From Nitrososphaeraceae archaeon (GTDB taxonomy: Archaea > Thermoproteota > Nitrososphaeria > Nitrososphaerales > Nitrososphaeraceae), in the NCBI GenBank assembly GCA_013114725.1, contig QCWD01000007.1:1-42499 (forward strand): a stretch of 42,499 bases of DNA, written 5' to 3'. Positions 11,547 through 15,038 of this stretch are shown in pieces. A program made the position numbers and the translations under genes. Each line of letters opens with the position of its first letter. Position 1 is the first letter of the stretch. The notes beneath the pieces are model-generated. The model was given only the letters and a program-made list of their open reading frames with translations. It was not told where the DNA came from and did no database searches.

Positions 11547-12749
11547 TTATCCCCTTCTTGTTGTAGATACTATTTTTATGACATCATTATTATTAAGAAC
11601 ATGTTCTGCTCCTAATCTTTGGTTAGTTCTAACATCTATGGCATAAAGAAATCCATTGCCCAAATCTGCATGTATCATCGTTGCTAATACTTTTGCTGTT
11701 GTTCCTTTATTGACTAATAATGCATGTGGTAATACGTTACCTTTTTTATCGGATAATTTTATATCGTCTTCTACAGGATACACTACAATAGTTTTTAACA
11801 CATCAAAACAAATTTTATTGATGATTTCTTGTATCCCAGTTGTTCCATATTTTTTTAGATATTGCTTAATTAATTCCAATGCATGTCTTTGTTGGAGATT
11901 TAGCGACTCTTCATTTTTTATCTTAAAATCCGAATCACCGGGTAAATAAAACAAAAGTCCTTTTGTAGATGCCCTCCTCAACACTACTTCAGCTTCTGAT
12001 GCGCATGGTACTATCTGATATCCCTTTTCTCTAATTTTTTTTATATTTTCTTCAGAGGAATGAAGGTCTGATTTATTTGCCGCTATTATTAACGGTTTGG
12101 ATTTCTTTCTAATTTTTTTTGCAAAATTCAATATTTCATCATGTGTCCATTCATCAGGTCTTTTACCTTTCAATCCCAATTCCATAAGAGTTTCAATGAT
12201 GAGCTGCTCTGGAACAGCAAGTCCAGACATTTTTTTATATAAAACATCTTCTATTTTCAAATTCCGAGTTTCTAGATCTTTTACTGTCTTATTCCAATCT
12301 TTGTTTATTATTGAAAAAAACCATAGGTCAAATTCTTCTTCGACAAATTTAATATCTTCAAGTGGATCTCCATTTCCTGGATCGATAAATCTCCCTTCAA
12401 AATCAGTTGAACCAGAAATATCTACTACATGAATTAATCCATCAGCCTGACGTGAATCATCCAAAAATTTGTTTCCTAATCCTTTGCCTAAATGAGCTCC
12501 GGGGACTAGCCCAGCAACATCAATAATTTTTACAGGAATAAATCTTATTCCATCTATACACATTGAATTATTTGGATTATCTTGGACCTCAAATTCTCTA
12601 CAAACACAATTTACCCTAACATGAGTTACACCTAAATTCGGATTTATAGTGGTAAACGGGTAATTAGCCGTATGGACGGACAGGTTAGTTGAAGCATTAA
12701 AGAAAGTTGATTTACCGACATTTGCTTTGCCTATTAGGCCAATTAACAT
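11547..12749 (-). CDS. ychF: YchF/OLA1-type GTP-binding protein with TGS domain
   Basis: P-loop NTPase of the OBG/YchF group, thought to act on ribosomes. G1 is GKANVGKST (7-15), the switch II Gly motif is DVAGLVPGAHLGKGLG (77-92), and G4 is NKSD (225-228). The C-terminal part (about 310-398) is a TGS domain. True YchF/OLA1 proteins have a changed G4 motif and prefer ATP; here the guanine-type NKxD is kept, as in the archaeal subgroup, so GTP is the likelier substrate. The start at 12749 (MLIGLIGKANVG) puts the P-loop at the usual place. First gene of a unit that continues into kae1 (7-base gap); divergent from the PurF-like gene. Confidence 0.92.
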   Translation of the reverse strand: MLIGLIGKANVGKSTFFNASTNLSVHTANYPFTTINPNLGVTHVRVNCVCREFEVQDNPNNSMCIDGIRFIPVKIIDVAGLVPGAHLGKGLGNKFLDDSRQADGLIHVVDISGSTDFEGRFIDPGNGDPLEDIKFVEEEFDLWFFSIINKDWNKTVKDLETRNLKIEDVLYKKMSGLAVPEQLIIETLMELGLKGKRPDEWTHDEILNFAKKIRKKSKPLIIAANKSDLHSSEENIKKIREKGYQIVPCASEAEVVLRRASTKGLLFYLPGDSDFKIKNEESLNLQQRHALELIKQYLKKYGTTGIQEIINKICFDVLKTIVVYPVEDDIKLSDKKGNVLPHALLVNKGTTAKVLATMIHADLGNGFLYAIDVRTNQRLGAEHVLNNNDVIKIVSTTRRG

Positions 12750-12803
12750 TATCTACTCATTTGTTATCTAGTTATTTTGAATTATATAATTTTATATGAA
12801 TTG

Positions 12804-12810
12804 TTTATAT
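12804..12810 (+). promoter_or_regulatory. TATA-like box of the PurF-like gene
   Basis: TTTATAT is centred 28 bases before the TTG at 12835. An in-frame TGA at 12826-12828 rules out any upstream start in this frame, so the box and the TTG together define a leaderless start. Confidence 0.55.
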
Positions 12811-12834
12811 CCCCATTTTTGTTTATGATCTATA

Positions 12835-14217
12835 TTGGCCGGTCTCATTGCATTATACCGTCATGGTGAAACACTAAAAAAATCCCAAGAACAGGGAACG
12901 ATTGTTTATCTTATTCGTGCCATGAGATTATTACAACATAGAGGTAAAGCCTATTGGAAATTAATATTCGATCAAAGTTCAATAGACGGAACTGGTTCCT
13001 TACCTAATGACAAACGGATTGTTGATATTATTAAAAAACGAGGAATCTCTGGAAAACTAGGGTTAGGTTATCTTTCAAAAAGACCGCCAATCTATAACTG
13101 TATGAATCATATAGATATAATTTTTGATGGTTTTCTTGTAGATACAGAAAAACTGTATCTTCATCCTTCAATAGGTTCATCCAAAAACTATGACCATCTT
13201 TATCAAATTTATTATATTTTCGTCAATTTCATGATTAAAAATAAAAATCCTGAATACGCCGCAGAATTTCTAGATAGACATCTGAGAGGAAATATTATTA
13301 TGAAATTTGGGGATGAAATATATTCATATAGAAATAGTAGCGGATTTAAACCACTCGTTTTTGCTTCGAACGACGAAATATCCATTCTTTCTTCTGAAAA
13401 TTTATTAAAAACCTATTTCCCAAAATTAAATTTTTATGATGTAGATATGGGAAATTTATTAAAAATCAGTGATAAAAACAAAATTGAGGTAATTGCTAAA
13501 GTTGAAAAGAATCCTATGATGATGGATCCTTTTGAATTTATAAGAGAATATCATGTAACGTCGGAATTTAATGGTAAAAGCATATATTCAATTAGAAGAA
13601 ATATTGGAAAAATTCAGGCAGATTTTTTGTCAGCAAATGTGGATTTAGATAGTGCATATGCAGAACCAGACTATACTCGTCCTATGGCATTAGGATTTGG
13701 TATCCAATACAAAAAATTTAACCCAAATTTTGAAATGATCGAAGGTATCATAAAAGATCGTTACGATGACGCAGACCATATGATTGATTTTTCAGAACAG
13801 GAAAGCAAAAACAAGTTATTATCTACTGGTAAATCATTAAAATTTGTAGTTCCCAAAATTGATACCATCCAAAATATTGCCTCTATTCAGGGTACAATTC
13901 AAACTGGGAGTACTATAAGGGAAACAATATATTACATGAATAATTCTGGCATTTCAAATATAGACGTTATTGTAAATTACGTACCAACAATTGATGGAAG
14001 ACAAGTCGGTCTTTATACACATAACAGAGAATTTATCGCAAGTAAATATGTTGGTAAAGTGTCCAATTTAAATGACCTAAATTATAATATATCTCGAGAA
14101 CTACATTGCAATAATATATACTACAACTCGCCTTCTATGCTTGCTAAAGGAATAGGTATTTCGGAAAAAAATTTATGGTTTCCAGAATGGATTCGTTTTT
14201 TAGATTATAAAAAATAA
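12835..14217 (+). CDS. PurF-like protein lacking catalytic residues (probable pseudoenzyme)
   Basis: The layout is that of amidophosphoribosyltransferase: an N-terminal class II glutaminase fold (about 1-225) and a C-terminal phosphoribosyltransferase fold (about 230-460). Recognisable parts are LLQHRGKAYW (32-41), SGFKPLVFAS (169-178), IIKDRYDDAD (305-314) and the ending region around NIYYNSPSMLA. The chemistry is missing: residue 2 is Ala where PurF has the nucleophile Cys, the G-H-x-R-Y segment is LGLGYLSKR, the VPVPDSG segment is YAEPDYTRP, and the PRPP loop VDDSIVRGTT is IQGTIQTGST. The frame is long and intact, so this is not recent decay. It begins with TTG; no other start fits. Its role may be regulatory or structural. 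The next gene follows after nine bases and is likely co-transcribed. Family assignment is firm; loss of activity is inferred. Confidence 0.82.
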   Translation: MAGLIALYRHGETLKKSQEQGTIVYLIRAMRLLQHRGKAYWKLIFDQSSIDGTGSLPNDKRIVDIIKKRGISGKLGLGYLSKRPPIYNCMNHIDIIFDGFLVDTEKLYLHPSIGSSKNYDHLYQIYYIFVNFMIKNKNPEYAAEFLDRHLRGNIIMKFGDEIYSYRNSSGFKPLVFASNDEISILSSENLLKTYFPKLNFYDVDMGNLLKISDKNKIEVIAKVEKNPMMMDPFEFIREYHVTSEFNGKSIYSIRRNIGKIQADFLSANVDLDSAYAEPDYTRPMALGFGIQYKKFNPNFEMIEGIIKDRYDDADHMIDFSEQESKNKLLSTGKSLKFVVPKIDTIQNIASIQGTIQTGSTIRETIYYMNNSGISNIDVIVNYVPTIDGRQVGLYTHNREFIASKYVGKVSNLNDLNYNISRELHCNNIYYNSPSMLAKGIGISEKNLWFPEWIRFLDYKK

Positions 14218-14226
14218 ATCACAACA

Positions 14227-14520
14227 ATGAAATTAATTGATTCTAAGGTATTACTATCTGATTTTCATTATGATAAAAAGTATTATATCAATAAATTATA
14301 TCTAAAGCAATATCTTAAACATTTTGACAGCATTTTTGGTGATTACTATGTCATTAAAGCATTTCTTTATACAAACCAAGGAAATTTTGAAATTATATAT
14401 TCTGAGGGCTATAATGATAAAAATATTTTAGAAGACATTTACAATTTTTTAACAAAATATGAGGGAATTGCAAATTTATTAAATAGGATAATTATTGAAT
14501 TAGAATCAAATACAAATTAA
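14227..14520 (+). CDS. Small hypothetical protein, partner of the PurF-like gene
   Basis: Unrecognised soluble protein of 97 residues, rich in Tyr, Lys and Asp, with predicted alternation of strands and helices (FGDYYVIKAFLYTNQGNFEI looks like a beta hairpin; the C-terminal 45 residues look helical). It has no cysteines and no membrane segment. It starts nine bases after the stop of the PurF-like gene, so the two are very probably one transcript, and it ends two bases from the end of the convergent nucleotidase gene. The tight spacing suggests a functional link with the PurF-like protein. Confidence 0.6.
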   Translation: MKLIDSKVLLSDFHYDKKYYINKLYLKQYLKHFDSIFGDYYVIKAFLYTNQGNFEIIYSEGYNDKNILEDIYNFLTKYEGIANLLNRIIIELESNTN

Positions 14521-14522
14521 TT

Positions 14523-15038
14523 TCAGATTATTTTCTCCAATTCACTTAACTTGTTAATTCTGTATTTCCAATTAAATTTATGATTCCATGGTTGAGAAAA
14601 TAAAATTCCTTTTTTTGGTTTCTTGATACCGATCAAGTTCATAGGATAATCATCAATTAACACATCAAATGGATAAACATGTTTTGAGATTTTGTTATGT
14701 ATGAATGAAATACCATCAAAAATAATGTCGTGCAATTCAAGCCATTTGATTACATATTCTATAGTATTCTTATCTCGTTTTGTTAGTAATAAAATATTAT
14801 ATCCTTTATTTTCAATTTTCTTAAGAGTACCAGCGAGTCCTTCTTCTGTAGTCCATACAAAAGTAAACAGCATTTTACACTTCTCTTCAGTAATTGGTAT
14901 GATATTTGGAATTTCCCACTCTGTTATATTCTCTTTTTTGTATTTTGTATTATTTCTTTTATTATACTCATCTACCCATGTAATTATCACATCGGCTAAT
15001 ACTGAATCCAAATCAAAAGCTATTGTATTTTCAGACAT
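14523..15038 (-). CDS. HAD-family 5'(3')-nucleotidase-like hydrolase
   Basis: A compact HAD phosphatase. Motif I is AFDLDSVLAD (8-17), the Asp-x-Asp nucleophile pair; motif II is the Thr in ILLLTKRD; a Lys before the C-terminal motif and IDDYPMN (motif IV region, acidic pair) complete the site. The size and the small helical cap between motifs I and II resemble the NT5C group (cytosolic 5'(3')-deoxyribonucleotidase and relatives), which dephosphorylate nucleoside monophosphates, but substrate cannot be read from sequence. It runs towards the PurF-like operon and lies 36 bases downstream of the Taw1 gene stop, same strand, so may share its transcript. Confidence 0.78.
   Translation of the reverse strand: MSENTIAFDLDSVLADVIITWVDEYNKRNNTKYKKENITEWEIPNIIPITEEKCKMLFTFVWTTEEGLAGTLKKIENKGYNILLLTKRDKNTIEYVIKWLELHDIIFDGISFIHNKISKHVYPFDVLIDDYPMNLIGIKKPKKGILFSQPWNHKFNWKYRINKLSELEKII

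Follow-up and report, generated by a model that had tools for sequence, protein, structure and literature searches.

A PurF paralogue with rewritten active sites, conserved across the Nitrososphaeraceae

PurF starts de novo purine synthesis. A paralogue of PurF in which the residues of both former active sites have been replaced, mostly in the same way in every relative compared, is encoded in the window (the whole stretch of DNA that was analysed, 42,499 nucleotides, from a Nitrososphaeraceae archaeon). Sequence comparisons support a strongly selected, re-specialised gene rather than a decaying one. A relative of PurF that is clade-wide and constrained in this manner provides a clean case of enzyme re-purposing. 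The features of the gene and its surroundings are collected in Table 1.

Table 1. Features of the paralogue locus, with positions in the window and residue numbers of the product.
Feature	Coordinates	Strand	Remarks
PurF-derived paralogue	12835..14217	+	460 aa; TTG start; intact ORF; begins M-A-G-L-I
Class II amidotransferase (Ntn) domain of paralogue			about residues 1-230
Type I phosphoribosyltransferase domain of paralogue			about residues 230-460
N-terminus M-A-G-L of paralogue	12835..12846	+	Ala in place of catalytic Cys1
TATA-like promoter element(s)	12791..12811	+	upstream of paralogue start
QHRGKAYW motif	12934..12957	+	residues 34-41; QHRGQESW in PurF of the order
GYLSKR for GHVRYS	13066..13083	+	residues 78-83; glutamine carboxylate-binding Arg lost
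DGFLVD for NGTIAN	13126..13143	+	residues 98-103; oxyanion Asn lost
AEPDYTRPM for PVPDSARPA	13660..13686	+	residues 276-284; pyrophosphate-loop region
EGIIKDRYDDADHMIDFSE, rewritten flexible loop	13741..13797	+	invariant acidic residues; low model confidence
QGTIQTGST for PRPP loop DDSIVRGTS	13888..13914	+	residues 352-360
Small downstream protein	14227..14520	+	97 aa here, about 105 in relatives
YGR210-like TGS GTPase	11547..12749	-	divergent neighbour; position conserved; context only
NT5C-like 5'-nucleotidase gene	14523-15038		tail to tail with the pair of paralogue and small gene

Sequence and structure of the paralogue

A sequence-only reading of this DNA had described a full-length PurF layout in an intact frame with a clear promoter and with Ala in place of the nucleophile Cys, and each of these points was borne out. 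Upstream of the TTG start of the 460 aa ORF stand the codons ATA and TCT and then an in-frame stop, TGA, at 12826-12828. A longer N-terminus with Cys is thus impossible, and a missed upstream start carrying that residue was excluded. In seven relatives (L005, L006, L012, L013, L036, L039, and L043) the open frame itself begins with the TTG, which argues that the short start is real. Among the 52 homologues with an N-terminus, translation begins at TTG (33), ATG (15), or GTG (4), and all 52 open with [start]-A-G or [start]-G-G; Cys1 occurs in none of them, the residue being always Ala or Gly. A TATA-like site lies 25-45 nt 5' of the start in 36 of these 52 homologues, compared with 11.9 in shuffled sequence.

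Profile-against-profile comparison with hhalign aligned the paralogue family to PurF over 428 columns (probability 100, E 1.4e-43), and a sequence search of the PDB with the family profile returned PurF entries only. PurF entries were also the top structural matches of the AlphaFold model (mean pLDDT 80.6), in which the two domains are packed differently from those of PurF, with a whole-chain rmsd near 20. No Pfam or NCBIfam model recognises the family at threshold: the window protein matched no Pfam family, and its match to the NCBIfam purF model (TIGR01134) was weak, at 40.8 bits where the cut-off is 350.

The altered GHxRY, VPVPDSG, and PRPP-loop segments had been quoted correctly as LGLGYLSKR, YAEPDYTRP, and IQGTIQTGST. 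The first of these aligns with AIGHVRYST of PurF, and PurF R77 and N102 correspond to S81 and D98 of the paralogue. Across the 51 aligned paralogues the PurF loop QHRGQE is replaced by QHRGKA, GHVRYS by GxLSK, HNGTI by xDGF (HNG by FDG in the window protein), PVPDSARPA by AEPDYxRPM, and PCYAGIDFP by GRQxGLYT. Beyond what the sequence-only reading had noted are the changes in QHRGQE, the oxyanion Asn, and the flexible loop, and the loss of four cysteines that align with the Fe-S ligands of Bacillus-type PurF. The protein had been described as lacking the PRPP loop, and this holds for the aspartates, where DD has become QG in all 51 paralogues; the loop itself is rewritten (QGTIQTGxT), not absent, and within its phosphate turn a Gly and a Thr are retained. 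In the flexible loop KDRYxxxGxxRSFI of PurF has become KDRYDDxDxMIDFS(E), with D-R-Y kept. This stretch is among the best conserved of the paralogue, yet the ligand-free model shows it as disordered.

Type I phosphoribosyltransferases bind PRPP through the two acidic residues of this loop. In Escherichia coli PurF, glutamine use is abolished by loss of Cys1 (as summarised in PMC3261824). Because the paralogue has lost both kinds of residue, it is, by these sequence criteria, very probably no longer able to run the PurF reaction.

Selection and conservation

For the column comparison, the 51 paralogues were set against 16 ordinary PurF sequences of the order, and a column was called fixed when at least 95% of the residues were the same. 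Of the 127 columns fixed in PurF, 34 have the same residue in the paralogues, 54 are variable there, and 39 are fixed to another residue. The paralogue is thereby fixed at 73 of the 127 PurF-fixed columns and at 61 of the 313 others (odds ratio 5.6, p 2e-14). Polar or charged residues account for 28 of the 39 re-fixed positions, many of which belong to loops that make up the two PurF active sites. The median dN/dS of close paralogue pairs was 0.081, which indicates strong purifying selection.

The substitutions noted in the window protein are therefore conserved across the clade (51 aligned paralogues), and close relatives with Cys and the PRPP loop were sought and not found, in keeping with a clade-wide family and not a recent loss. 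A recent loss or a sequencing error was excluded by the occurrence of the same changes across the family homologues. The earlier term pseudoenzyme fits a protein that is dead as PurF and may be too passive for one whose catalytic positions have been re-fixed to mostly polar residues.

Distribution and the ordinary PurF

The paralogue was found in about 55 of 60 further Nitrososphaeraceae genomes at 48-62% identity, counting fragments at contig ends, and the genomes with no match are mostly incomplete drafts. In a phylum sample of 398 genomes it was present in 7 of 7 Nitrososphaeraceae and in none of the 391 others. Among 84,980 species genomes scanned, 54 loci were found, under titles that include Nitrososphaera, Nitrosocosmicus, Nitrosopolaris, and Nitrososphaeraceae archaeon, together with a few apparently mislabelled drafts; those titled bacterium, Nitrosopumilus, or Nitrosopumilales (L101, L120, L123, and L091) are probably mislabelled. 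A search of plasmids gave no match to the paralogue. Most simply, the gene dates from the common ancestor of the Nitrososphaeraceae.

The presence of a second, complete PurF had been proposed as a check. Such a protein is encoded on contig C49 of the same genome and scores 353 bits, above the cut-off, which excludes the paralogue as the sole PurF of this organism. Canonical PurF was found in 57 of 62 Nitrososphaeraceae genomes. About 86 kb separate the paralogue from purF in G011, a genome in one contig; in another genome (G025) the distance is about 94 kb.

Gene neighbourhood and the small downstream protein

In 47 of 53 loci the next gene downstream of the paralogue is a small one, its start often overlapping the paralogue stop by 4 nt; of the six other loci, three end at the paralogue or shortly past it. 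Cases in which the small gene is truncated or absent next to an intact paralogue (L012, L026, and L027) show that the two need not always occur together. The product was modelled with a pLDDT of 93.6 as four antiparallel strands and two helices. It evolves faster than the paralogue, with a mean column identity of 35% and Arg87 as its sole invariant residue. Comparison with solved structures gave no significant match (best Foldseek E 0.46; VIA-align Z at most 5.7), and matches in Pfam and NCBIfam were at chance level only.

The small protein is present in nearly all sampled genomes of the Nitrososphaeraceae and of a second family of the same order (f9), and it was not seen elsewhere in the phylum sample. 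The f9 genes occupy other loci that have no PurF-like neighbour, and the small protein is thus older than the pairing or independent of it. Its occurrence there without the paralogue also weakens the idea of an obligate subunit. In f9 the gene often lies near genes that resemble those for deoxyhypusine synthase and threonyl-tRNA synthetase (named by eye), and one f9 genome (G381) carries two copies at separate places (L196 and L197).

On the other side of the paralogue, the TGS GTPase gene is followed by genes for TsaD/Kae1 and a Bud32-like kinase, an order kept in most relatives with enough flank. The NT5C-like nucleotidase gene has stayed near the paralogue in some genera only, and it gives a weak hint of nucleotide metabolism.

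Descent

A PurF-like protein without the N-terminal Cys, named PurF', has been described in Crenarchaeota, where its gene adjoins purF (Brown et al. 2011, PMC3261824). Many other Thermoproteota also have a second, tandem PurF-like gene, the products of which start with M-A-G-I or similar and have the PRPP loop LIDDSVVRGNT or a close variant. Such tandem pairs of PurF and PurF' (L164-L181) were seen in many families of Thermoproteota beyond the Crenarchaeota described in 2011.

In phylogenetic trees the paralogues formed one clade and the PurF' proteins another, each with a support of 100. A more thorough tree joined the paralogue stem beside the PurF of Nitrososphaeraceae. A joint clade of paralogue and PurF' was not rejected by the AU test (p 0.79), and with a paralogue stem of 2.6-3.2 substitutions per column the trees do not discriminate firmly between these placements. 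The paralogue and the PurF of Nitrososphaeria share a Trp in QHRGxxxW, extra residues in the flexible loop, and a C-terminal YN and LxF. Most likely, judging from these sequence characters, the paralogue descends from the PurF of the Nitrososphaeria themselves, in which case its Cys was lost independently of that of PurF'. Two defining features of PurF', adjacency to purF and the PRPP loop, are absent from the paralogue and speak against its membership of PurF'.

In a further family (f20) the ordinary PurF has EDSIVRG instead of DDSIVRG. A half-dead PurF was suspected there and set aside, the change being an ordinary-looking variant.

Possible function

The reading put forward here, tentatively and at somewhat less than even confidence, is that the paralogue is a neofunctionalised PurF whose cleft binds a phosphorylated ligand and which acts as a regulator or sensor. 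The cleft of the phosphoribosyltransferase fold would still hold a phosphorylated small molecule, an idea that rests on the Gly and Thr kept in the phosphate turn and on the D-R-Y kept in the flexible loop. The cleft is predicted to be lined by the invariant AEPDYxRPM, EGxIxDRYDDxDxMxDxSE, QGTIQTxxT, and TxDGRQxGLYT, and the flexible loop would close over the bound ligand. In that state the paralogue could signal to a partner, for which the small protein and PurF are candidates, with a regulatory action that may fall on nucleotide metabolism, while the Ntn domain would serve as a structural or binding module. The re-fixing of 39 of 127 PurF-fixed columns with the fold kept and a dN/dS of 0.081 is consistent with such a role, as are the clade-wide presence next to a separate PurF in the genomes, the coupled small gene, and the conserved promoter position. 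Against it, the small protein need not be a partner, as it also occurs in f9 without the paralogue; the paralogue lies away from purine genes, and the convergent NT5C-like nucleotidase is found in some genera only; and the flexible loop was modelled at low confidence. The re-fixed polar residues would suit a new enzyme equally well, with altered chemistry in the cleft and with the DRYDDxD loop and DGRQ as putative catalytic or metal-binding groups. This alternative is a serious if doubtful one. In its favour, 51 proteins, down to 48% identity, have re-fixed the active-site columns, mostly to polar or charged residues, and the rewritten flexible loop ranks among their best conserved stretches even though its ligand-free model is disordered; however, the motif set was not found in known phosphoribosyltransferase-fold enzymes as far as these were searched, the proposal comes without a substrate or pathway context, and conserved binding residues alone would give the same pattern. 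A structural subunit or scaffold that binds no ligand, such as a partner in mixed oligomers with canonical PurF, would agree with the kept fold, the lost catalytic residues, and the PurF of the same genomes, but it is improbable, since the re-fixing of cleft residues would then be needless and conservation concentrates at the former active-site columns. Regulator of purine synthesis, scaffold, and nucleotide sensor, the roles suggested in the sequence-only reading, are thus candidate roles.

That the paralogue is a divergent PurF', with the ammonia-dependent PRPP aminotransferase activity predicted for PurF' (Brown et al. 2011), is considered very unlikely. The Cys is missing likewise, the M-A-G-I start is similar, one copy stands alongside PurF, and a joint clade survives the AU test, but the paralogue lacks the aspartates of the PurF' loop and is located elsewhere than beside purF, and the shared sequence characters link it to the PurF of Nitrososphaeria. 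The missing Cys alone speaks for a decaying gene or an assembly error, an explanation left with a negligible chance by the intact frame, the identical changes in 51 genomes, and the dN/dS of about 0.08. In a broader proposal, a new enzyme or ligand sensor arose from PurF in the ancestor of the Nitrososphaeraceae, with both sites rebuilt around new, invariant charged motifs and with the small protein, which occurs in two families of the order, as its partner; this proposal is rather unlikely.

The kind itself is already known, archaeal PurF relatives without the Cys having been on record since 2011. A search of the open-licence literature, a scope outside which most subscription journals fall, found nothing on the paralogue lineage. 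New here, as far as a description was looked for, is a lineage in which both sites have been re-fixed and which is accompanied by a small downstream gene. The paralogue is a lineage-wide gene of major soil ammonia oxidisers, and together with the small gene it offers a concrete pair for functional work in cultured species.

Comparison with known systems

With PurF (TIGR01134; PDB 1ao0, 1gph, and 1ecb) the paralogue has in common the two-domain fold and homology over the full length; it differs in the loss of Cys1, of the Arg and Asn of the glutamine pocket, of the PRPP aspartates, and of the Fe-S cysteines. Its N-terminal domain also matches the fold of beta-lactam synthetase and carbapenam synthetase (1jgt and 1q15). 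In these proteins the amidotransferase-like domain does not work as a glutaminase, and the protein serves a different function. The second domain, a synthetase, is still catalytic in them, whereas that of the paralogue is a phosphoribosyltransferase domain.

The closest parallel in kind is PurF', which like the paralogue is a second, Cys-less PurF-like protein alongside an ordinary PurF in the genome and for which an ammonia-dependent PRPP aminotransferase activity has been suggested (Brown et al. 2011, PMC3261824). PurF' retains the PRPP loop LIDDSVVRGNT, whereas the paralogue has QGTIQTGST without the aspartates; the gene for PurF' is a near neighbour of purF and of other purine genes, and that for the paralogue is on a different contig from purF in the genome of the window. 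With the paralogue, archaea offer a second case of a lost PurF cysteine, apparently independent of the first, for comparison with PurF'.
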